From an uncultured SAR86 cluster bacterium (GTDB taxonomy: Bacteria; Pseudomonadota; Gammaproteobacteria; Magnimaribacterales; D2472): 32,824 nt of DNA. Below, one piece after another: positions 22,106-32,824 of this stretch (positions are counted from its first letter, which is position 1; each line of letters begins with the position of its first letter). The position numbers and the translations under genes are program-made. A model generated the notes under the pieces. The model did no database searches. It was given only the letters and a program-made list of their open reading frames with translations, and was not told where the DNA came from. The DNA is taken from assembly GCA_902558375.1 (NCBI GenBank), contig CACEDQ010000013.1:1-32824 (forward strand). The letters are read 5' to 3'.

Positions 22106-22180
22106 TCCCGAATAGCTCAGCGGTAGAGCAGTTGACTGTTAATCAATTGGTCGTTGGTTCGATCCCAACTTCGGGAGCCA
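22106..22180 (+). tRNA. tRNA-Asn (anticodon GUU)
   Basis: A 75-base tRNA with encoded CCA. UCCCGAA pairs with UUCGGGA, the D arm is GCUC-AGCGGUA-GAGC, the anticodon arm GUUGA-CUGUUAA-UCAAU gives anticodon GUU, and the T arm is GUUGG-UUCGAUC-CCAAC. Its 3' end marks the switch from housekeeping genes to accessory genes, and tRNA-Asn is a frequent integration site for mobile elements. Confidence 0.97.
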
Positions 22181-22240: not shown

Positions 22241-23176
22241 TCAATGAATTCTTTTGTTTTCAATATAATCAATTGGACTTTTTATAACCCTTTGGCAATA
22301 AACTTCAAGGCTTGGAGTTTTGACATCAAGTTTGCTTAGTATAAATTTATTTAGCTTCATAGCTAAAATATTTATTAATCCCAAATAATTGTTGATTTCA
22401 AAATCTAATACCTCTGAATGACACCCGCCTTCTTCATTCTCATTAAGCAGATTTAAACAATATCTCTCATATGCCATCACGAGCTCTTTCCAATACTTAA
22501 TATAATCTGTATTTAAATTTGAGAACTCTTTTACATCTGTTTCAGTTAGATTTCCGTTAGTGATTATAGATAATTCATCTAGCATGAATTCGAATGCATT
22601 AGGATTTGATAGTGCTTGGTCTAAAGTCTCTCTTGCGTGCTTGAAATTCATCAATATTTGCTCTGAAAGTTTTTTAATTTTTTCTATATTATTAAACTCT
22701 GACTCTGAAATAAGTTTTGTTAATAGTTCGCAGCCCTTTTCAAAAAAGACATAAGATTTAATAATAAAAGCCTCCATTTCATCAGGATGAAGATAGCTCA
22801 AAAATATCTTATGAAATTCTTTTTCGATCTGTATTGTCTGTAATATATTTGTCTCAAAAGTCTCAGAATCTAGTAAAGATCGATCGTGTTTGACATCACA
22901 AAATTCAATACATGACTTCACAAATGCTCTTAAGGCATATAAAGCTGACTTATGCTCAATACTGATGTTAGATGCTGCAATATCTACACTATTAAACATA
23001 TCAAGCGACTGTTGATACTGTTTAGAAAGCTTTATAAATTCATAATTATTTATATTTTTCTTGTTAGACTCATAAAAATGATCAATATCAGATGCAATCC
23101 AGTATGAGAAATTTAATTTTGTTTGAAGTTCTAGGAACTCCCTATCATGTTTTATGTTTTTATTAAAAAATTTCAT
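22241..23176 (-). CDS. Unknown helical protein under a LexA box
   Basis: A 311-residue protein I do not recognise. It looks almost wholly alpha-helical and soluble, with long amphipathic stretches, no signal peptide, and no enzyme motif I could defend. Possible landmarks are several Cys in the first half (KSCIEFC, near 87-93) and a late SEVLDFEINNYLGLINILAMKLNKF helix. It is the island gene nearest tRNA-Asn and is read toward it. A near-consensus LexA box overlaps its predicted -10, 37-56 bases upstream of the ATG, so expression is probably induced by DNA damage. By position it could be a damage-induced effector or regulator of the island, but that is a guess. Confidence 0.75.
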   Translation of the reverse strand: MKFFNKNIKHDREFLELQTKLNFSYWIASDIDHFYESNKKNINNYEFIKLSKQYQQSLDMFNSVDIAASNISIEHKSALYALRAFVKSCIEFCDVKHDRSLLDSETFETNILQTIQIEKEFHKIFLSYLHPDEMEAFIIKSYVFFEKGCELLTKLISESEFNNIEKIKKLSEQILMNFKHARETLDQALSNPNAFEFMLDELSIITNGNLTETDVKEFSNLNTDYIKYWKELVMAYERYCLNLLNENEEGGCHSEVLDFEINNYLGLINILAMKLNKFILSKLDVKTPSLEVYCQRVIKSPIDYIENKRIH

Positions 23177-23254: not shown

Positions 23255-23677
23255 CTAAAATGGTATGCACTCATTCTTATCACAAATAGTATTTCTGAAT
23301 ATTCTTTGATCTCTGCTGAGAAACCATTTACAAAGAGCATAAAACTTTGAGTTTTCATTACTAGAATAACTCTTAATAATGCTAGCTCGGCTTAATACGT
23401 CATGTTCTTGATAGGCCAGTAAATCCTCTAGATCTGAAATATATCTATGAAGCATGCCTCTATTTTTTAGATCTTTTTCAAGACCTTTGAAATGTTTAAT
23501 GTCCACGCCTTTAGATAATAAAAATGGTATATGTTTCTGCCAAGCAGTTCCTTTATCGGATAGAGTCATATATCTTTTATAAAAACAATTTAATCTAGCA
23601 TTGCCACGGATGCGTGCTGACCAGCAACTACAATCATTAAAATCTGAATTAAAAGGAATCATATTTTCATTAATCAT
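23255..23677 (-). CDS. Unknown small protein, 140 residues
   Basis: I do not recognise this family. The protein is basic and Cys-rich for its size: Cys at 16, 18 and 31 (NDCSCW, RLNCFY), then CKWFL and a C-terminal CDKNEC pair, so metal binding is possible but unproven. RIRGNARLNCFYKRYMTLSDKGTAWQ might contact nucleic acid. The gene starts two bases after the stop of the 103-residue gene and belongs to the same short operon, expressed from the operator-bearing promoter at 24021-24057. Confidence 0.65.
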   Translation of the reverse strand: MINENMIPFNSDFNDCSCWSARIRGNARLNCFYKRYMTLSDKGTAWQKHIPFLLSKGVDIKHFKGLEKDLKNRGMLHRYISDLEDLLAYQEHDVLSRASIIKSYSSNENSKFYALCKWFLSRDQRIFRNTICDKNECIPF

Positions 23678-23679
23678 CT

Positions 23680-23991
23680 TTAGAATTCTTTTATACTAAT
23701 TGTTTTTTTTCTTATGGTATAAGCCTCTTTTGCTGGAATTGTTTTTTCTGGTTGTGCTTTGTAGTTAATAAGGCCCCAATTTAAATTAAAATTTTTAAGC
23801 CTTGCGTGAGCATGATTTCCCATTGCTTCTTTAAGTTTTTCCATGCACATTTCTTTATGCTTTTTTGCTTCTTTAATTACTCTATCGCATTCCATTGATT
23901 GTTTTGCATAAATTGCTAGTGACTTATCTAAATTGATAATAGATCCGTTAACATCTAAGTCTTTAGTTTTCTTTGTATTCGTAGTTTCCAT
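23680..23991 (-). CDS. Small accessory protein resembling the tail of YqaJ-type phage exonucleases
   Basis: A 103-residue protein with a helical first half (about 25-60, DRVIKEAKKHKEMCMEKLKEAMG) and a beta-rich second half ending NYKAQPEKTIPAKEAYTIRKKTISIKEF. This helix-hairpin-then-strand arrangement, with the PEK...PAK...R motif, resembles the C-terminal accessory domain that accompanies YqaJ/lambda-exonuclease-type recombinases of phages. I base this on memory of the pattern, not a search. It heads an operon directly downstream of the PD-(D/E)XK nuclease gene, separated by 87 bases holding an operator. That fits a partner role for the nuclease. Confidence 0.55.
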   Translation of the reverse strand: METTNTKKTKDLDVNGSIINLDKSLAIYAKQSMECDRVIKEAKKHKEMCMEKLKEAMGNHAHARLKNFNLNWGLINYKAQPEKTIPAKEAYTIRKKTISIKEF

Positions 23992-24078: not shown

Positions 24079-24897
24079 TTAAATTAGCTTATGTTCCTGC
24101 ATGCCATCAAATAGCTCGGCATATTCACATTGTTTATCGCCTTTTGGACCGAAGCCTGAATCAGCATGATTTGGACATGTATCTTGATGTAAACAATCTC
24201 TTAGCTCTAAGATTGTGTTTTCAACCCATGAATCGTCTGCTACGTATGAAATTAACTGTACATCAAACTTCATATTAGCTTTATTTAAAGTGTCATCTAA
24301 CATTCCATCTTCAAAATGTTGATCACCATTTACATAAACGAAATAACCAATATTGCTAACATTGAAACCTTTCTGTCTAAGTATCCATTGATACATATCC
24401 ATTTGCCTTTTGTAGGCTTCCTTATATACTCCATTAAGATTTATTTCTGCTAAGCCAGTAGATTCTTCGTTTCTTTTTCCTGCAGTGCTTTTGTAATCAA
24501 CCACAAAAATCTCACCTGTAGCAGGGTCATGCCATACATCATCTAAACCTCCACCAATAATTAAATTACTTGATTCATGATTGACTCTTAAACCCAATTG
24601 CAAAGATTTGGTCCATGTCTCAAACTCATCATGCTTAAAAGGAACTAAGTGTCCTAATCCATTTCTTTCCATAAAAGGATGAGGTTTTTGTATTTCTCTA
24701 TATTTATCAAAATCTTTTTTTAATAGCGTGTCAGTAGCTGTATTTAGAAGAAAACCTGGCATTCCAGGAAACTTAATACCTTTTACACGATTCATCCAAA
24801 AGCATGCTGGACAGTTCATAAAACTTTGTATTTGAGAGCGACTTACCTCATAAGGCTCTGGATGGTCTGGTTTGAATGTTCCTCTATGTCTTGGCAT
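24079..24897 (-). CDS. PD-(D/E)XK (RecB/Cas4-like) nuclease with candidate Fe-S cysteines
   Basis: A 272-residue PD-(D/E)XK superfamily nuclease. GGGLDDVW (115-122, Asp119/120), FVVDYKST (131-138, Asp134 and Lys136) and RQMDMYQW with Gln165 and Tyr169 (the QxxxY motif of RecB/Cas4/AddB nucleases) make the active site look complete. Cys29 and Cys32 (NCPACFW) near the N-terminus and Cys235, Cys241 and Cys257 near the C-terminus are placed like the 4Fe-4S ligands of Cas4 and AddB. It probably acts on DNA ends or single strands. It is the last gene of the five-gene operon, one base after the clamp-like gene, which suggests a processive nuclease or recombination role. No CRISPR array or cas1 is present. 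Confidence 0.83.
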   Translation of the reverse strand: MPRHRGTFKPDHPEPYEVSRSQIQSFMNCPACFWMNRVKGIKFPGMPGFLLNTATDTLLKKDFDKYREIQKPHPFMERNGLGHLVPFKHDEFETWTKSLQLGLRVNHESSNLIIGGGLDDVWHDPATGEIFVVDYKSTAGKRNEESTGLAEINLNGVYKEAYKRQMDMYQWILRQKGFNVSNIGYFVYVNGDQHFEDGMLDDTLNKANMKFDVQLISYVADDSWVENTILELRDCLHQDTCPNHADSGFGPKGDKQCEYAELFDGMQEHKLI

Positions 24898-24898
24898 T

Positions 24899-25660
24899 TT
24901 AATTAGATGTCCTTATATCCTGCATTTCATTGTATACATCATAAATGGAATTTGCTATCGCAGAGTCCAGAAGTTTTGTTAAGTCTTTTTTTGATTTTGC
25001 TGCTAACAGTAAATTAGTTTCAGTGCCAGTTGCCCCTGACCATAGCTCGTGCAAATTCGAGGCTGTTATCGTGTCATCTAGATATAGAGGCATTAACATG
25101 TAGCATACATTTGGAGATGTTAATAAAAGTTTGCCGTCTTTAGTCTTGTTTATAGAAATAGGTTTAGTACCACTGACTGTTTTTTGTGAATGTAAATTTA
25201 AATATTTAATTTTTTTTAATAAATTTTGATCATAAAAATTAGGGGTTACATTCTTGTTTAAAATTTTTTTTGGGGCAACTGAACCAATCGTACTTGTTCT
25301 AAAGTTTTTAGTTGAATACTTTACAACAGAGATCGTATATTGCTTTGAATTAAATCTACACTCAGGATTAGAGTATGGGCCCCTTATGTAGACTTTTTTA
25401 TTACAATTCTTTATTTTTTTTGCCTCTATCTTTAATTTACTTTTATTGAAATCTATTGATACACCATCAGCTTTATTACATTCACCTTTGGGGTCATAAA
25501 AGACTAATAACTCCCATCCATTACAAGCAATTATGTTAATTCCACCAAGAATGCTAGGTATTATATGTACACAATTTAAATAAGTTCTCCATTCCTTTGT
25601 ACCTGTAAAATGACTAGCTTTTGCAATCATCTCCCCATTAGCCTCTATATTGATATTCAT
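24899..25660 (-). CDS. DnaN (sliding-clamp)-like protein
   Basis: A 253-residue protein with distant resemblance to the bacterial beta clamp. YLNCVHIIP...GGINIIACNGWELLVFYDPKG resembles the clamp segment YLNGMLFE...LRTVATDGHRLAVCSMP, and PNVCYMLMPLYL resembles the clamp C-terminal VMPMRL. The length would cover about two of the three clamp domains, so it might be a shortened phage-type clamp that needs a higher oligomer, or simply a clamp-fold protein. It sits between the DUF4116-like gene and the nuclease gene with one-base gaps. Pairing of a clamp-like protein with a nuclease fits processive DNA degradation or repair synthesis. The assignment is tentative. Confidence 0.5.
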   Translation of the reverse strand: MNINIEANGEMIAKASHFTGTKEWRTYLNCVHIIPSILGGINIIACNGWELLVFYDPKGECNKADGVSIDFNKSKLKIEAKKIKNCNKKVYIRGPYSNPECRFNSKQYTISVVKYSTKNFRTSTIGSVAPKKILNKNVTPNFYDQNLLKKIKYLNLHSQKTVSGTKPISINKTKDGKLLLTSPNVCYMLMPLYLDDTITASNLHELWSGATGTETNLLLAAKSKKDLTKLLDSAIANSIYDVYNEMQDIRTSN

Positions 25661-25661
25661 G

Positions 25662-27761
25662 TTACTTTTTTAATCCTTGTTTTTCTTCAAAAAAAAATGA
25701 TTTATATCTAGCCAATAAAAAAATATCATCTGTATCAATTTTTTGAATGAACCACTGATATATTTGATTTTTTTCATCACTATTAAAAAGTTGCATATCA
25801 AGATTTAGAATTTTTCGTATAGATAAATAATCAATTACATCTTTGGGATATTTTTTGAATGCTGGCATTAAAATATCTCTATCAGTTCTTATGCTAATGT
25901 GTGCGTTTTTAAATTTTGCAAGCGGGTCTTTATAAAAAATATCATCTAAAAATATTTTATCTTTTTTTAACTCATCGGCTGCATACCTAAAAGAGCTTTT
26001 GGCTTTCAAATATGCTAGCTTTACAATTTCTTTATTTGATTTAATAGGATGTGGTGCTAGTTTTAATATTTTAGAGGATATTAGAACTGCTTTTTTAACG
26101 AAATTCTTATCAAATAAATATCTTTTTGGAATAAAATGAAGATCCTGCCAGCAATTTATACCATATTTTTTTAGAATTGTTAGATAGAATTCATCATCTA
26201 TAACAGAATCAAAATATCTTTTAAACTTTGCTTTAATGAAAACATCATGATTATCTAAATAGATAAAACTTTTATCTAAGAGATTTGGGTTATTTTGTAA
26301 AAAATACCTATTTATTTCTGGGGTTCTCAATGCATTAGAAACCTTGAAGTAAATTTGTTCACCTATATCTAATATTCCTTGATCTGGCCACAACCTCCAA
26401 CGTACATATCTAATACCTTGATATCTAATAATGGTTTTAAAAAATTGCAAATCCATACTTTTTTCTAAGTATTTGATAACTTCTTTTTGAATAAAATCTG
26501 GCAACCAATCAGAGACTTCTCTTGCATATACTTTATCAAAATATACTGATGCTCCTCTAGGGTTATGGTTGCCAGACGGAAGAACATAAATAAATTCTTT
26601 TAGAAATGCTTTTGAAGAATAAATCTTTGAATCAAGATTGCGAATATAGTTAAGGCATTTTGGAGATCTTTTATGGATTGAATAATCTGTTGGCCAGGCA
26701 CCTAGTTCATCATAAGCTATTAAAGTTGCCTTTCTTGCTGAAATTGTTGGAGAAGTATCATATCCTCCTTCGTATAAATCAATTGATTTGAATTCATTAG
26801 CTAAAAAACGGCACTCAGTTGAGAGCTTACCATCATAAAGTCTTCTATTCTTCCAATAAATATTGTGAATAGTATTTTTTGGAATGTTTTTTAAATCTAA
26901 ATTTTCTCTAAGAAAAGCATGCACATCTTTAGTATTAAAAAACTTCCATTTGGAAAGAAAGTTAATCAAAAAATTTAAAGATTTTGTTTTTTTTAAAATT
27001 TCTCTGACAACAGCTTTTCTTGCTAATATGAATTTTTGCTTAAAATGTCTATGACATATGTGATTACTATGGATATATTCATGAAAATTGAGATAATCAT
27101 ATGAATTTCTATAATCTTTAGAAAAAATAAAATTTTCAACAAAAATTTTTGCATACTCTTCTTCAGAAATTTCATCATTAAGCATAAATGCAAAAGCTGT
27201 ATCTGGTGATTTATGTAAAGCTAATTGCTTAAAAGTTTTTTTGCTGTAAATATCAGGCAGTTCGATTCTTTGCCATGGTGGTGACCAATAAGACCATACC
27301 CCAATAAAGCACAAATCATATAAAGTTTTATTAGAATTGATAATCTCTTTACCAATATCTTTTTCAGAAATAGATAACCGCAAAATGTTTCTCGATAAGT
27401 TAATGGCTCTTGTAATGTTTTCCTTGGTATGAATTTTTATATCATCACATGACATCAAATATCGTAAACAATGCTCCTTTTGATAAAGGAAAAAATTATC
27501 TAAAATATCTTGATCATTGAGAAAGGAATCACACGGCAAGTCGAAGCTTTTAATTTTTTTATATTGAATGTGTTTTATAAAAACATCTTTGTCGCGTTGC
27601 AATCTTGTTGATATTTTTGAGAGACATAAATAGCTTTCTTTCATATGTTTTAAGACAAATTTTTTATCATCAAGAAGCTTGCATTCATTTTGAAAATTTC
27701 TTGAATCCCGATGGCTCAAGTTAACTATCTGATTTTCTTCTAAACTAAGTTTTTTTTTCAT
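25662..27761 (-). CDS. Large unknown protein with DUF4116-like repeats
   Basis: A 699-residue protein without signal peptide or membrane helices, rich in Lys, Phe, Tyr and Ile. The C-terminal third contains repeats of the DUF4116 type, that is, D-x-x-F/V-x-x-x-A followed by a-L-x-Y/F-A. The clearest is around residues 575-615 (NKEIVKLAYLKAKSSFRYAADELKKD without a break); weaker copies read DKSFIYLD, DDEFYLTILKKYG and KNFVKKAVLISSKILKLAP. The centre (about 315-450) has many aromatic residues (WSYWSPPWQ earlier, WLPDFIQKEV) and no motif I recognise. DUF4116 repeats are thought to be helical interaction modules. It is the third gene of the MoxR-VWA operon, so it could be the substrate-recognition or scaffold component. 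Confidence 0.65.
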   Translation of the reverse strand: MKKKLSLEENQIVNLSHRDSRNFQNECKLLDDKKFVLKHMKESYLCLSKISTRLQRDKDVFIKHIQYKKIKSFDLPCDSFLNDQDILDNFFLYQKEHCLRYLMSCDDIKIHTKENITRAINLSRNILRLSISEKDIGKEIINSNKTLYDLCFIGVWSYWSPPWQRIELPDIYSKKTFKQLALHKSPDTAFAFMLNDEISEEEYAKIFVENFIFSKDYRNSYDYLNFHEYIHSNHICHRHFKQKFILARKAVVREILKKTKSLNFLINFLSKWKFFNTKDVHAFLRENLDLKNIPKNTIHNIYWKNRRLYDGKLSTECRFLANEFKSIDLYEGGYDTSPTISARKATLIAYDELGAWPTDYSIHKRSPKCLNYIRNLDSKIYSSKAFLKEFIYVLPSGNHNPRGASVYFDKVYAREVSDWLPDFIQKEVIKYLEKSMDLQFFKTIIRYQGIRYVRWRLWPDQGILDIGEQIYFKVSNALRTPEINRYFLQNNPNLLDKSFIYLDNHDVFIKAKFKRYFDSVIDDEFYLTILKKYGINCWQDLHFIPKRYLFDKNFVKKAVLISSKILKLAPHPIKSNKEIVKLAYLKAKSSFRYAADELKKDKIFLDDIFYKDPLAKFKNAHISIRTDRDILMPAFKKYPKDVIDYLSIRKILNLDMQLFNSDEKNQIYQWFIQKIDTDDIFLLARYKSFFFEEKQGLKK

Positions 27762-27766
27762 TTAAA

Positions 27767-28993
27767 CTAAAAATTTACTGATTCAGTCGATATTCTTACA
27801 ACTTCACCAAAAGGGAAATTTTTTGTGTCTTCGCCGTCTTTCGATACCAGCCACATAACTGGGTTAGTCGGTATCCAAGCAGGAAATTGCTCATAACCGT
27901 CTGTTAAATATATTGAGAGTTTGTGAACTCCAAAGTGGCTATTATTATTTTTTTCTAAATATTCAAAAAAAGGAACAAAACTTGTACCTCCGCCCCCGTG
28001 TAATATTGGAATTTGTTCAGCATGGTTAATATCAAAAGGACCAGAAAGTTCGCAATCTGAATAAAAAAATTCACACTTTACATGAGGGTATGACCTCAAA
28101 ATACCTTTTGTTTCTGCTACAAATTGATCAATTAACCCTCTTGAAATAGAGCCGCTAGTGTCTATACACACAGATACCTCTATTGCATCGCACATTAAGG
28201 CTTCTAAATATAAGCCCCTGTACAAAAATCTTCTATCCAGATCATCAAAATCTGCAGGAGTTCTTCCAATATATTTCCAAAGAGCATTTCTCCAATTTAT
28301 TTCCGGTTCTAGGATATTCTCAACCTCTCTTGCCATTCCGGCAGGTAAGCCACCTGTTGAGTGGCTTCCATACTTATCATTTTGAATTAAAGAATCAGAG
28401 TTTTTTAGCACTTGTAATTTATCTTTCCAGTAACTTGCTATCTCCTCTTGCTCTTCTTCTGATAGCTCATTTCCAATACCGATACCATTACTATCTTCTT
28501 GCTCTTCTTTTGTTTTTTCATCATCAGCTCCAGAATTTATTGAGGCAGCGATATCAGCAAGAGATAGTTCATATTTTTTAGCTTTATACTTATCGTCTTT
28601 TAGTAGAGCTTCGTAGATATATTCAACAGATTTATCACGATATGCGTGATCTATAACTGCTCCCTTAGGTAACTTAAAAGATGTGTTTCGTTGAATTAAG
28701 TCGTTAACAACAATATCTGCAGCAATATTCCATATATAAGGATCACGAGACTGTCTTCTTTGGACATGTAAAAGAGCCATATGAAGAACTTCATGAAGCA
28801 TTAGAGCGTTTTGTTCAGATGAGGTTAAGCTCTCAAGAAATTTTTTATTAAAAAATATATCCCTACCATCTGTTGCTGCCGTATCTAATTTTGTTGTTTC
28901 TTTTATTGAAGCAAAAAGCATCAAAGCACCAAAGAATTGACATTCTCTTCTTACTTGAAGCTTTGTTTTGCTGATGATTTCAGAAAAATTCAT
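27767..28993 (-). CDS. VWA-like protein with HExxH metallopeptidase-type domain (DUF2201 family)
   Basis: A 408-residue protein of the type usually encoded beside MoxR AAA+ ATPases. The N-terminal domain has HEVLH (His67, Glu68, His71) followed by NIAADIVVN (Asp93 may be a third ligand), the metallopeptidase-like signature of DUF2201 proteins. An acidic linker runs from about 155 to 190. The C-terminal VWA-like domain has DTSGS (278-282), GGTSF (336-340) and TDG (364-366), a complete MIDAS metal site. Such pairs are thought to act as ATP-driven chaperones or remodelling machines on a partner complex, and actual peptidase activity is unproven. It lies one base after the ATPase gene, with the DUF4116-like gene five bases on. 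Confidence 0.87.
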   Translation of the reverse strand: MNFSEIISKTKLQVRRECQFFGALMLFASIKETTKLDTAATDGRDIFFNKKFLESLTSSEQNALMLHEVLHMALLHVQRRQSRDPYIWNIAADIVVNDLIQRNTSFKLPKGAVIDHAYRDKSVEYIYEALLKDDKYKAKKYELSLADIAASINSGADDEKTKEEQEDSNGIGIGNELSEEEQEEIASYWKDKLQVLKNSDSLIQNDKYGSHSTGGLPAGMAREVENILEPEINWRNALWKYIGRTPADFDDLDRRFLYRGLYLEALMCDAIEVSVCIDTSGSISRGLIDQFVAETKGILRSYPHVKCEFFYSDCELSGPFDINHAEQIPILHGGGGTSFVPFFEYLEKNNNSHFGVHKLSIYLTDGYEQFPAWIPTNPVMWLVSKDGEDTKNFPFGEVVRISTESVNF

Positions 28994-28994
28994 G

Positions 28995-30002
28995 CTATGC
29001 AGCTAAAAGTTTTTGCAATTTATCAGCGACTGACATTAATTTATCATTTGCCATAATCATATCGACTAATTCATTTACTTTTTTGTTACTCTTCCAAATA
29101 GTTGAAACATCATAAGTACACTGGCTCAACCACTCCATGCCACCTTTCTTATCAATATATAAGAAAGCATTTTCAACCTCTTTGATCGTTTTTGCTCTTA
29201 CTGCTAGTGCACAAGTTAGTGCGTATCTTGCTGAAAGATCCTCAGGAAATTTAGGGCTCATATCGCCTGATAAGATTGTTGGTATATCTGGCAAGCTTTT
29301 GTAAACTTTACAAAAGCCTCTAAACTCTGATGCGCAACCCTGACCAATTGCTGGATCAAGATCTAAATTTGCTTTTAAAAGCTTATCACCAATATCCCAA
29401 CTTCTCGGTGATGGCCATGAAGGTGAATTTTTATCAATTTTATGAAGGTATTTTGGTCTAAAATTTAGGAATGAAATAATCCTATCATCTATATTGTTTC
29501 GTAATGCGTAATCCTTAAACTCATCAAGCCCTGTTTTGACTTCTAAATGAATAAAACGATTGGCTAATGGTGCAGGCATATCGAAAACAGCAGCAAAATC
29601 TTCTTTTCTGTTTCCTGCGCTCCATATAAACCAACCATCTGGAACTTTATAATTACCAACCTTTCTATCTAAAATTAATTGTTGAGCTATTCCCTGAACA
29701 GCAGGTGGAGCCATATTTATCTCATCTAAAAATAAAATACCCTTTCCTGAAGTGGGCAAGAATTCAGGTGGATACCAATATGCAGTGTCATCTTTTGGAA
29801 CAGGTATTCCTCTCAAATCAGTTGGAGCCAGTTGGCTTATTCTAAGATCTATTAATTCAAGATTATGTTCCTTAGCTACTGATGATATAACTGAAGATTT
29901 TCCAATGCCTGGAGCCCCCCAAATCATCAAAGATGATTGAATGTTATGTTCAACGACTTTACCTAAATAATTAGACAGTTTTTTTATAGTTAGTTTTTTC
30001 AT
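28995..30002 (-). CDS. MoxR-type AAA+ ATPase
   Basis: A 335-residue AAA+ ATPase (AAA_5/MoxR group). Walker A is GAPGIGKSS (29-37, Lys35), Walker B is ILFLDEI (89-95, Asp93/Glu94) followed by NMAPPAVQGIAQQLI, and sensor-1 is WSAGNRKED. The arginine-finger region includes MPAPLANRFIH. The C-terminal lid is helical. AAAGGAG is a good ribosome site five bases before the ATG. It is the first gene of the five-gene minus-strand operon and lies divergently from the WYL regulator, with an operator in the 53-base gap. It should drive conformational work with the VWA protein next to it. Confidence 0.9.
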   Translation of the reverse strand: MKKLTIKKLSNYLGKVVEHNIQSSLMIWGAPGIGKSSVISSVAKEHNLELIDLRISQLAPTDLRGIPVPKDDTAYWYPPEFLPTSGKGILFLDEINMAPPAVQGIAQQLILDRKVGNYKVPDGWFIWSAGNRKEDFAAVFDMPAPLANRFIHLEVKTGLDEFKDYALRNNIDDRIISFLNFRPKYLHKIDKNSPSWPSPRSWDIGDKLLKANLDLDPAIGQGCASEFRGFCKVYKSLPDIPTILSGDMSPKFPEDLSARYALTCALAVRAKTIKEVENAFLYIDKKGGMEWLSQCTYDVSTIWKSNKKVNELVDMIMANDKLMSVADKLQKLLAA

Positions 30003-30046: not shown

Positions 30047-30061
30047 CGACATTTTGTGTCG
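30047..30061. promoter_or_regulatory. Putative WYL-regulator operator, copy 2
   Basis: CGACA-TTTTG-TGTCG, read in register with copy 1 as CGAC-N7-GTCG. It lies in the gap between the divergent ATPase and WYL genes, 10 bases upstream of ATG 30071, so it could control both directions. Finding it next to the only transcription factor gene of the island, and again at the second operon, suggests it is that factor's site. Confidence 0.65.
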
Positions 30062-30070
30062 CATATAAAT

Positions 30071-31081
30071 ATGACAAGACCTAAGCATACCGAAGCGATT
30101 AGAAGAGGATTTAAAATTCTTACAATGGTAAGTAGAGCGCCATTAAGCTCTAGAGATATTCATTCTAGAATTAATGATTCAGGTATAGATGTTTCTCAAA
30201 GAACTATTGAAAGAGACTTAAAAGAACTTCCAGATATTTTTCCTCAAATGATAGAAGTTGATGATAAATCAAAACCTTATACTTATAGACAACCAAGAGA
30301 TGCTAGAAGTCATTCTGGAATGAGCCCTGATGAAGCAGTTTGTCTAGAACTTGCATATACCTATCTTAATCCTTTACTTCCAAATACATCACTCGATAAT
30401 ATCAGACGGTATCTTAAAGAAGCCGAAGCTGTATTAAATGAAACTTCTTCAACAAAAATGAAAAGATGGAAAGATAAAGTACAAACTGTAAATGAAGGTT
30501 TTCAACTAAAACAAGCAAAGATTAAAGATGGAATTCTTCAAAATATTCATAAAGCTTTGTGGGAAGGAAGAACCATTACTGCTAAATATAGAGGTGCAAA
30601 AAGTAGTATAGCCAAAGATTATGTCTTGCATCCTGCAGGAATTGTTAATAGAGGAAGAATTTGTTATTTGATATGTTCTTTTGATGATGATGCTAAAAAA
30701 GTTACTTATTTGCCGTTGCATAGATTTTATAGTGTAGGTCTAATTTATGAGCAACAAAGTAGACATCACAATGAAAAAGTTGCTAACTTAACCAAAAATT
30801 TGTTCGGTTTTAATGTTGGCCGAGAAAAAATTAAAATTAAATTAAAATTTTCTATGGATGCTGGCAGGCATTTATACGAAACTCCACTTTCAAATAAACA
30901 AAAAATACATCAGTCAAAGGATGGTTATATTATTGTTGAAGATACTGTTCCTGGTGGAGGTGAATTAAGTTGGTGGATAAGAGCTTTTGGTGATTCTGTT
31001 GAAATACTTAAACCTCAATCACTAAGAGACGAATTTAAAAAAATGTCTATAAGAATGGCTAAGTTATATGAAAAAAATTGA
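30071..31081 (+). CDS. WYL-domain transcriptional regulator
   Basis: A helix-turn-helix plus WYL-domain regulator, 336 residues from ATG 30071. A GTG at 30056 would add five residues but lies inside the operator. Numbered from that GTG, the winged HTH spans about 12-62 (SSRDIHSRIN, DVSQRTIERDLKEL). The WYL domain is about 158-232, with YLICSF and LPLHRF, and the eponymous Trp is replaced by Cys203 (CYL). A WCX-type C-terminal extension ends with GGGELSWWIRAFGDSVEILKP. WYL regulators often control phage-defence or DNA-damage genes and can sense nucleic acid. It is divergent from the ATPase operon and overlaps the TerB-like gene by 14 bases. Confidence 0.88.
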   Translation: MTRPKHTEAIRRGFKILTMVSRAPLSSRDIHSRINDSGIDVSQRTIERDLKELPDIFPQMIEVDDKSKPYTYRQPRDARSHSGMSPDEAVCLELAYTYLNPLLPNTSLDNIRRYLKEAEAVLNETSSTKMKRWKDKVQTVNEGFQLKQAKIKDGILQNIHKALWEGRTITAKYRGAKSSIAKDYVLHPAGIVNRGRICYLICSFDDDAKKVTYLPLHRFYSVGLIYEQQSRHHNEKVANLTKNLFGFNVGREKIKIKLKFSMDAGRHLYETPLSNKQKIHQSKDGYIIVEDTVPGGGELSWWIRAFGDSVEILKPQSLRDEFKKMSIRMAKLYEKN

Positions 31082-31463
31082 AATAAATTCTATTGAGTCA
31101 GTGATTCTCTTTACCCTTTATATTTGTGCTCAAGATGATGTTATCGCGGAGGAAGAAATAGAAGAATTAGCTGCAGAAGGGCCTATTTTACAAAAATTAT
31201 ATTTAGATATGTATGGAGAACTTATTAATCAAGATTTAAAAGAAGTTATCAAAGATACTGCAAAAAAATTAGAGCCTAGAAAACAATTTATAGGTAAAAA
31301 TATTTCTGACATAGAGCAAAAAACTTTTTCACGACTGATAACCGATCCTAAAATTCGTGATATAGCATTACTAATTAGCAGACATGCAGCAAGCGCAGAT
31401 GGGTTTCATAAAAATGAAAGTCATAAATTTAAGTACTGGTCTAAAAAATGGGGTATATCTTAA
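31068..31463 (+). CDS. TerB-like small protein
   Basis: A 131-residue acidic helical protein. Its C-terminal half (ALLISRHAASADGFHKNESHKFKYW, interrupted here) resembles the TerB fold of tellurite-resistance-associated proteins, in which an ADG motif followed by an acidic residue binds metal. The N-terminal AQDDVIAEEEIEELAAEG is a second, weaker ADG-E-like element, as expected for the pseudo-repeat of TerB. Its start lies inside the end of the WYL gene, so the two are probably translated together. The stop overlaps the convergent UmuD-like gene. The fold assignment is moderate; any link to membrane stress or metal sensing is speculative. Confidence 0.55.
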   Translation: MKKIEINSIESVILFTLYICAQDDVIAEEEIEELAAEGPILQKLYLDMYGELINQDLKEVIKDTAKKLEPRKQFIGKNISDIEQKTFSRLITDPKIRDIALLISRHAASADGFHKNESHKFKYWSKKWGIS

Positions 31464-32365
31464 ATAAAACGATTAATTGCAGAGGTAACAGTACCTAAAA
31501 TTTCAAAATTTTGGCCATTTTTGTTGAAAATTTCAGGAAAATCAGGATTATCTGCAACCAGGGATAGCTCAGGGTTGAGTTTTAATCTCCTGCAAACACA
31601 CTCTCCATCGACATCAGCAATCACAAGACTGTTCTGCTCAGGTTTAATAAACTTATCAACTACTAGCAATGATTGATGTGTTATTCCAGAATCAAACATA
31701 GCTTGTCCATTAGCTCTTACTAAAAAAGTAGCCCTTCCATTTTTTATCAGATGTTTATTAAAATCTATTGAGGATTGTAAATAGTCACTTTTAGGACTAG
31801 AAAACTCTTCAATGGAATTTAGAATTGGTATGTTTTCGTTTTCCTTTTGGAGTTCACATAAAAATTTAAGATTTATTTCGTTGCCACTTAGAAATGCCAC
31901 ACAAAGCTTGGTTGATTCAAACAAATAAGATTCATAATTTAAAGGATCACTATCAATTATTTCATTTATAGTTTTTGAATTGATACTTCTAAATCTAAAG
32001 CCATGATTTGAAATTATCTCCCTTAGTGGCAGAGGATAGTTGTAAGATTCAAAAATAAAATTTGTTGCACAATATGAAGTGTAAAATAACTTCCATGTAA
32101 AATTTTTCTCAAGTTCTTTTATTCTTCTATTATATTCATCTCTTAATTTTTCATATTTTCTTTCAATTTTTAGCTTCTTCTTTTCTAGGGATTTGATTTT
32201 TTTAGCTTTTAAAAATACGTCTTCTTTAATACTTCTAGTCTCAGGTATTTCTTTATTTATTCTTATTAATTCTTTTGGATCGATTAAGTGTTTTTTTAGT
32301 TGTGATAGAACATACAGATGCTCGATTGTTTTTGTTCCAAGGAATCCTCGTTTTGTAAAAATCAT
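31460..32365 (-). CDS. UmuD-like protein with dead protease site and novel N-terminal domain
   Basis: A 301-residue protein. Residues 190-301 align well with UmuD: SPKSDYLQSSIDFNKHLI matches SPAADYVEQRIDLNQLLI, and VVDKFI, ADVDGE, RRLKL and GTVTSAI continue the match. The catalytic Ser60 of UmuD corresponds to Ala222 (NGQAM), Lys97 to Arg259, and the scissile Cys24-Gly25 to Glu186-Glu187. It should therefore be neither an active S24 protease nor self-cleavable; it mimics processed UmuD'. The first 185 residues are an unrecognised domain including a charged coiled coil (about 45-90). UmuD' normally binds UmuC and the beta clamp. No umuC is visible, but the gene may lie beyond the edge. The adjacent upstream gene ends two bases away. 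Confidence 0.83.
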   Translation of the reverse strand: MIFTKRGFLGTKTIEHLYVLSQLKKHLIDPKELIRINKEIPETRSIKEDVFLKAKKIKSLEKKKLKIERKYEKLRDEYNRRIKELEKNFTWKLFYTSYCATNFIFESYNYPLPLREIISNHGFRFRSINSKTINEIIDSDPLNYESYLFESTKLCVAFLSGNEINLKFLCELQKENENIPILNSIEEFSSPKSDYLQSSIDFNKHLIKNGRATFLVRANGQAMFDSGITHQSLLVVDKFIKPEQNSLVIADVDGECVCRRLKLNPELSLVADNPDFPEIFNKNGQNFEILGTVTSAINRFI

Positions 32366-32367
32366 TT

Positions 32368-32824
32368 CTATTTACATCTTGATACTGTTTCAAAGAAATC
32401 TTTTTTTAACTGCGCAATTTTAAAAATATCGTCTTTAGGTATTTTTTTTTCATAACATCCCCAAACATAATCTTTTTGAGCTTTTGTTTTATCGTTTAGA
32501 TCTAATTGAACCATTTGTATTTTTAATAAGCGTTTGCATAAATGTATTTTTGGATTAGTTTCTGCAAACATTGCTGCTTCAATTAAATCTAAATCTTTTT
32601 GCTTTTCTGGTGCTATATCTTGATAAACAAGTCCATTTTTATTAATCAGATTTTTAAGGGTTTCTTTGTCAAAGCAAGAATGATCTGAGTGACGAATTAA
32701 CTGATTGTATTTTTTTAAAATAGTTTTTACTAACTTAGGCTGAGATATATGGTTGATTAAAAAAGGGTATTGCAATACAAATTCAATGATTGATTCTTTA
32801 TTTTCTTTTTTAATTGAATTAAAT
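32368..32824 (-). CDS. Partial protein with DUF4116-like repeat, runs off right edge
   Basis: The minus-strand frame is open from the stop at 32368 to the window end; upstream of a possible TTG at 32773-32775 it continues without stop (KESIIEFVLQYPF), so the 5' end is missing. At least 151 residues are visible. LKNLINKNGLVYQDIAP followed by DLDLIEAAMFAETN fits the DUF4116 repeat, in which N-G-x-A/V-L-x-Y-A-x-x-x-L is followed by D-x-x-x-V-x-A-A. The rest is Lys-rich and helical. It is probably co-transcribed with the UmuD-like gene (2-base gap). A DUF4116-like protein also occurs in the main island operon. Confidence 0.6.
   Translation of the reverse strand, partial: FNSIKKENKESIIEFVLQYPFLINHISQPKLVKTILKKYNQLIRHSDHSCFDKETLKNLINKNGLVYQDIAPEKQKDLDLIEAAMFAETNPKIHLCKRLLKIQMVQLDLNDKTKAQKDYVWGCYEKKIPKDDIFKIAQLKKDFFETVSRCK

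Follow-up and report, generated by a model that had tools for sequence, protein, structure and literature searches.

Ternary conflict systems that combine a MoxR-type AAA+ ATPase, a vWA cochaperone and a further partner have been described in VMAP, iSTAND, FtsH and beta-propeller types (Kaur et al, 2020, PMC7159879). They are found in defence contexts, preponderantly in multicellular prokaryotes, and are proposed to remodel a complex formed with the third component; in earlier MoxR/VWA work, the VWA domain captures a client peptide, with the ATPase powering a conformational change (PMC7159879). The other close relative is the pair of MoxR and a metallopeptidase-vWA protein of jumbo phages (Iyer et al, 2021, PMC7824862). 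Here we analysed a MoxR-VWA pair and the genes run together with it in an uncultured SAR86 cluster bacterium. The window, that is, the whole stretch of 32,824 nucleotides under analysis, is the entire contig CACEDQ010000013.1 (C13, ending at position 32824) of a 1.0-Mb, 72%-complete genome (GenBank assembly GCA_902558375.1; G000). In our best reading, a variable solenoid sensor tied to replication and repair proteins would be remodelled or cleaved by the MoxR-VWA pair. We see an even chance that the locus is a new, defence-island-borne variant of the MoxR-vWA conflict-type systems with a link to DNA, its function being predicted.

Five genes follow one another on the minus strand, with gaps of 1, 5, 1 and 1 bases according to the gene calls and gap measurement. 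They encode a MoxR-type AAA+ ATPase of 335 amino acids (28995..30002; Pfam AAA_5 and phrog_1297), an HExxH metallopeptidase plus VWA protein of 408 amino acids (27767..28993; Pfam DUF2201_N and DUF2201), a fast-evolving DUF4116 helical-repeat protein of 699 amino acids that is a candidate client or sensor (25662..27761; Pfam DUF4116), a DnaN (beta sliding clamp)-derived protein of 253 amino acids (24899..25660; family profile, and a DNA_pol3_beta_2 match of the orthologue in genome G028), and a RecB/Cas4-type PD-(D/E)XK nuclease of 272 amino acids (24079..24897; PDDEXK_1 and Cas4 models). The original prediction had proposed five codirectional genes with gaps of one to five bases, and this was borne out; the span given for them, 25662-30002, takes in the first three genes and stops just short of the clamp-like and nuclease genes. 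Because orthologues occur in the same order in two other genomes, the row does not consist of chance open reading frames.

Both members of the pair have the expected motifs. The MoxR protein matched Pfam AAA_5 at 6e-8 and phrog_1297 at 1.4e-87, with an intact Walker A (GAPGIGKS) and Walker B (LFLDE); relatives that are 45-84% identical to it occur in SAR86, in other phyla and in phages, and a comparison with phage relatives gave about 32-53% identity. The VWA protein matched DUF2201_N at 1.5e-33 and DUF2201 at 1.6e-16 and combines an HExxH....H motif (HEVLHMALLH at residue 67) with a metal-ion-dependent adhesion site (MIDAS; DTSGS at 278 and TDG at 364). In the alignment of its relatives the zinc and MIDAS residues are invariant or nearly so; one relative, from Marinicella (L018), has lost the catalytic Glu. 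An AlphaFold model built from 19 relatives had a mean pLDDT (predicted local distance difference test score) of 75.5, and in a fold search its C-terminal part resembled VWA/I-domains with Z of about 13 and a root-mean-square deviation of about 2.4-2.9 Å over some 135-155 residues; the HExxH half (about residues 1-240) was barely covered by matches. The label "HNH endonuclease" attached to this protein (27767-28993) by phrog_1314 conflicts with the motifs and appears wrong. The two-gene layout, with the metallopeptidase domain N-terminal to the vWA domain, is shared with the jumbo-phage pairs; unlike these, which lie among late virion genes, the SAR86 pair lies in a chromosomal island in which no structural gene was found.

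Compared with the ternary systems of Kaur et al, the locus differs in the N-terminal HExxH domain of its vWA protein, in its DnaN-like and Cas4/RecB-type neighbours, and above all in the third component. The Pfam scan shows no VMAP, iSTAND, FtsH or beta-propeller partner, and the third component is a DUF4116 solenoid in SAR86 and an LRV/HEAT solenoid elsewhere; the operon was not assigned to any of the four described types. The window's DUF4116 protein matched its Pfam family at 1.9e-13 in five stretches. None of the papers searched links DUF4116 or DUF2201 to MoxR.

The solenoid partner is not confined to SAR86. Outside this group, the phylum to which a Calothrix locus belongs carries this MoxR in 8 of 292 genomes, and that of a Chloroflexi locus (G603) carries it in 17 of 301. 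Sporadic copies occur in further lineages, and carriers are rare among Pseudomonadota (3 of 398, a count that includes the SAR86 genome analysed here). Among 26 neighbour proteins of the pair in other phyla, hand-picked at one per locus from non-random loci that include several close relatives, 14 matched LRV_2, 13 LRV and 11 HEAT. A regular-expression count over loci with the same limits found repeats of the LRV type in 16 of the 186 near open reading frames versus 4 of the 288 far ones. No DUF4116, clamp-like or nuclease gene was seen beside the pair at the loci examined outside SAR86, where an LRV/HEAT repeat protein recurs instead. The third partner of the pair is usually a helical solenoid, of the LRV/HEAT kind in other phyla and DUF4116 in SAR86. 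Two pairs are plasmid-borne. One, on plasmid pSYSA of Synechocystis 6803 (L085, NC_005230.1), has toxin-antitoxin genes in its vicinity and an LRV-like protein at a distance of about 4 kb; in the other, on pTHEOS01 of Thermus oshimai (L086), MoxR and VWA genes are followed by genes for a 747-amino-acid protein and a UvrD-type helicase, and a RecQ-family helicase lies upstream.

Within SAR86 we surveyed 203 genomes for the set (MoxR threshold, E up to 1e-40) and 199 for DUF4116. MoxR was present in six of the 203; the copy in G191 is distant and phage-like, which leaves the MoxR-VWA pair in five. The full set occurs in two genomes only, G000 and G028, and in G028 it sits at the same uvrB/tRNA-Asn site. 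At this site in G093 (locus L005) the MoxR, VWA, clamp-like and nuclease genes are present and a DUF4116 gene is missing. The two loci of family f4 (G042 and L006, the latter from G192) lie at another site; they hold MoxR, VWA and a DUF4116 protein of smaller size, lack a clamp-like gene and have a resident nuclease in the vicinity. The neighbourhood survey thus did not recover the fixed five-gene set that had been proposed. A DUF4116 protein accompanies four of the five pairs, with full-length relatives in 2 of 199 genomes (G000 and G028). The nuclease family is present in 95 of 203 genomes, mostly without the pair and often beside uvrB or resident, so the nuclease is not a dedicated client of the pair; seven genomes that lack MoxR have its long form, with neighbours such as Dcm-type methylases, MzaC-E-like genes or an extra SSB gene. 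The clamp-like gene was found with the pair in three genomes and elsewhere as one decayed copy beside a split nuclease (G132). The pair is therefore separable from the nuclease; the clamp-like gene and the large DUF4116 gene go with the pair, bar the decayed G132 clamp copy. Free variation of the neighbours, which would have told against the proposed link to DNA-processing genes, holds for the nuclease and does not hold for the presence of a solenoid partner. What stands of that link is the tight run of the pair with a DnaN homologue and a RecB/Cas4-type nuclease; what does not is its being a fixed set. The ATP-driven assembly step for a DNA-acting complex that the original prediction derived from it is an inference.

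The clamp-like label given to the fourth protein held up. Its G028 orthologue matched Pfam DNA_pol3_beta_2, the beta-clamp central domain, at 1.5e-5 (25.6 bits against a curated cut-off of 27), and a profile of three clamp-like sequences matched SAR86 frames of mostly 365-376 amino acids, taken to be the genomic DnaN, at 5e-8 to 1e-4. A search against the PDB returned nearly exclusively beta clamps, at E of 0.36 and above. The clamp-like proteins comprise 253-286 amino acids versus 366 in a beta clamp, and an AlphaFold model from three sequences only reached a pLDDT of 30. These profile matches identify the protein as a true DnaN homologue, derived from DnaN. The "RusA-like" resolvase label of phrog_3007 for the same protein (24899-25660) conflicts with this homology and appears wrong.

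The nuclease matched PDDEXK_1 at 2.5e-6 and the Cas4 model at 1.7e-6, has the PD-(D/E)XK motif GGGLDD...VVDYK, and carries Cys pairs near both ends (C29, C32, C241 and C257) that may form a putative Fe-S cluster site. It resembles RecB/Cas4-type exonucleases in its core and Cys pairs; unlike the RecB/Cas4- and RecE-type enzymes, it is short and stand-alone, without CRISPR genes or a fused helicase. Several relatives were observed elsewhere in SAR86. In a G002 island without MoxR, a second SSB gene, ending NEGIPF, adjoins the long-form nuclease (L117, 10573-10974). In G132, the split nuclease and the shortened clamp-like gene (L120, 9327-10141, and G132:C1:710237-710824) lie between two umuDC-like gene copies, an apparent decaying remnant. 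In families f2 and f3 (for example L124 and L125) a short nuclease relative is resident directly beside uvrB in many genomes and is a candidate housekeeping partner of UvrB.

Proteins beside the pair in sister loci carry C-termini of the SSB type. Among 767 SAR86 open reading frames, the pattern [DEQ][DE][IL]PF was observed at four C-termini versus 0.005 expected from composition, an expectation that is indicative only as the pattern was chosen after the tails were seen. All four lie beside MoxR-VWA: DDIPF at L005 8842 and L006 12174, EDIPF at L026 15844 and QELPF at L006 14341. Two of these are homologous DUF4116 proteins, 28% identical to each other, and the L005 DDIPF protein has no detectable relation to them. 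The organism's own SSB ends DDDIPF, and a Calothrix LRV protein encoded next to the pair has the C-terminus DDNPF. When every C-terminus in PF was counted across all loci, with real SSBs in the background, six lay near and three far among 1587 (p 0.34, not significant); it is the strict acidic-[IL]PF count in SAR86 alone that stands out. Since they occur beside the pair in sister loci, the tips are an independent pointer to DNA metabolism. Phage SSB has been reported as the trigger of the AbpAB and Hna defence systems (PMC10732053, PMC13381803).

Comparison of the window with G028 divides the locus into a constant and a variable part. Identities were high for uvrB (85%), MoxR (84%), the nuclease (83%), the VWA protein (74%) and the WYL regulator (64%), and low for the clamp-like protein (27%), the DUF4116 protein (33%), the 311-amino-acid protein (32%) and the S24 protein (36%). 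Such a split would be expected from diversification at a recognition end and equally from allele replacement there, and it does not choose between the two.

The sister loci also keep company with known defence systems. Next to the WYL gene of L006, PADLOC identified MzaB, MzaC, MzaD and MzaE together with a cytosine methylase, and G028 and G042 have homologues of these L006 genes that are 32-68% identical. In L005 (G093), DrmA and a NERD-helicase lie beside the pair (PADLOC). Mza (MzaABCDE) and DISARM (DrmA) thus share islands with MoxR-VWA loci of sister genomes, although the genes of the MoxR-VWA operon do not match the Mza or DISARM models. Neither system was seen in the window as sequenced, whose contig ends at 32824, before the corresponding part.

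These observations would fit a mechanism in which the MoxR ring and the VWA protein hold the solenoid partner. On sensing phage replication intermediates or phage replication proteins, the pair would remodel, and possibly cleave, this partner; the solenoid, or a linked nuclease or clamp-like partner, could thereby be freed to act at replicating DNA. In the sister loci the link to DNA might be made by the SSB-type tips, which could dock on repair and replication proteins that bind SSB. Recognition would fall to the variable proteins, and MoxR, VWA and the nuclease would be the constant engine; from its position, the WYL gene may control the operon. The outcome would be phage defence. A bolder version, which we consider doubtful, is that of an undescribed MoxR-vWA defence class, in which a constant engine of MoxR and HExxH-VWA operates on diversifying solenoid sensors (LRV/HEAT or DUF4116), and in which SSB-tip mimicry and a DnaN-derived protein would, in SAR86, direct a Cas4/RecB-type nuclease to phage DNA. 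If our main reading is true, MoxR-vWA conflict systems would extend to a streamlined, free-living ocean lineage and be tied to DNA replication and repair; if the solenoid partner is general, the module could be studied in a carrier that can be cultured, for example Synechocystis PCC 6803 (plasmid pSYSA).

Several points weigh against a sensor remodelled in defence. The company of defence islands shows neighbourhood rather than function, and the two f4 loci, which occupy the same site, do not count as independent. An SSB-type tip is absent from the DUF4116 protein in both the window and G028, the window's sole tip-like case being a weak ECIPF tail on a 140-amino-acid protein. The wide occurrence of the nuclease without the pair counts on the same side, as does the virion-assembly role proposed for the orthologous phage pair (PMC7824862).

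The last but one of these raises the explanation that survives best among the alternatives, namely that the pair and its solenoid are one system and the clamp-like protein and nuclease another, stacked in a defence hot spot. Compact SAR86 genomes, rather than a joint complex, would then account for the tight gaps. Some housekeeping genes of the window are indeed also spaced by a few bases, the nuclease usually has varied neighbours and no pair, a decayed clamp-nuclease pair exists without MoxR in G132, and the f4 loci hold the pair without a clamp-like gene. Yet the pair, clamp-like gene and nuclease are kept in one run in three genomes, intact clamp-like copies occur only beside the pair, and it is proteins adjoining the pair that bear the SSB-type tips; we regard independent cargo as rather unlikely.

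Improbable, in our view, is a module for DNA damage or replication repair, outside defence, in which MoxR-VWA would assemble or recycle a clamp-nuclease repair complex. The general chaperone roles of MoxR proteins (PMC7159879), the DnaN homology, the SSB-type tips and the nearby uvrB and S24/UmuD-like genes are in its favour. However, the pair is sporadic (five of 203 genomes), it sits in a variable island, Mza and DrmA systems are adjacent, and uvrB is a conserved flank that is also present at sites without the pair: at 26 fetched SAR86 loci the uvrB/tRNA-Asn site lacks it, and in most of them an ArsC-like gene is there.

A virion-assembly chaperone pair domesticated from a former prophage is very improbable: orthologous pairs do occur in late-gene regions of the phages examined (cyanophage S-TIM5-like and others), without DUF4116, clamp-like or nuclease partners, and the proposal for jumbo phages (PMC7824862) would supply the role, but the MoxR tree sets SAR86, phage and other bacterial sequences apart in supported groups of their own (100/99 and 100/100 for the SAR86 and phage groups), with SAR86 not nested in phages, and PHROGs found no structural gene in the SAR86 run, which also makes a prophage unlikely.

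Below the nuclease the run goes on, on the same strand, with genes of 103, 140 and 311 amino acids and gaps of 87, 2 and 78 bases. The first (23680..23991) weakly resembles the C-terminal part of RecE-like exonucleases (phrog_434, 0.0014) and has a G028 orthologue that is 61-66% identical. The second (23255..23677), with the ECIPF end and its weakly SSB-tip-like C-terminus, had no orthologue in the G028 or G093 loci. The third (22241..23176) is fast evolving and was assigned no family; its G028 orthologue is compared above. The island border is the 3' end of a tRNA-Asn(GTT) on the plus strand (22106..22180; ARAGORN). A simple tRNA-targeted integrative element was rejected, as the scan of the island genes revealed no integrase and neither the window nor G028 contains a repeat of the tRNA 3' end; the uvrB/tRNA-Asn locus is kept as a variable site.

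On the other side, a WYL-WCX transcription regulator (30056..31081, plus strand; Pfam WCX 8.6e-16, WYL 8.2e-9) is divergent from moxR, as at the SAR86 MoxR loci examined. A 131-amino-acid acidic protein encoded 3' of it (31068..31463, plus strand) gave no match in the Pfam scan; it is kept at SAR86 MoxR loci, and a homologue is present in one G002 locus without MoxR. The S24/UmuD-like peptidase-domain protein (31460..32365, minus strand) matched Pfam Peptidase_S24 at 2.9e-17. In the G028 island, a gene for a 717-amino-acid protein without a Pfam match (L024, 16099-18252) adjoins a gene related to that at 32368-32775 of the window.

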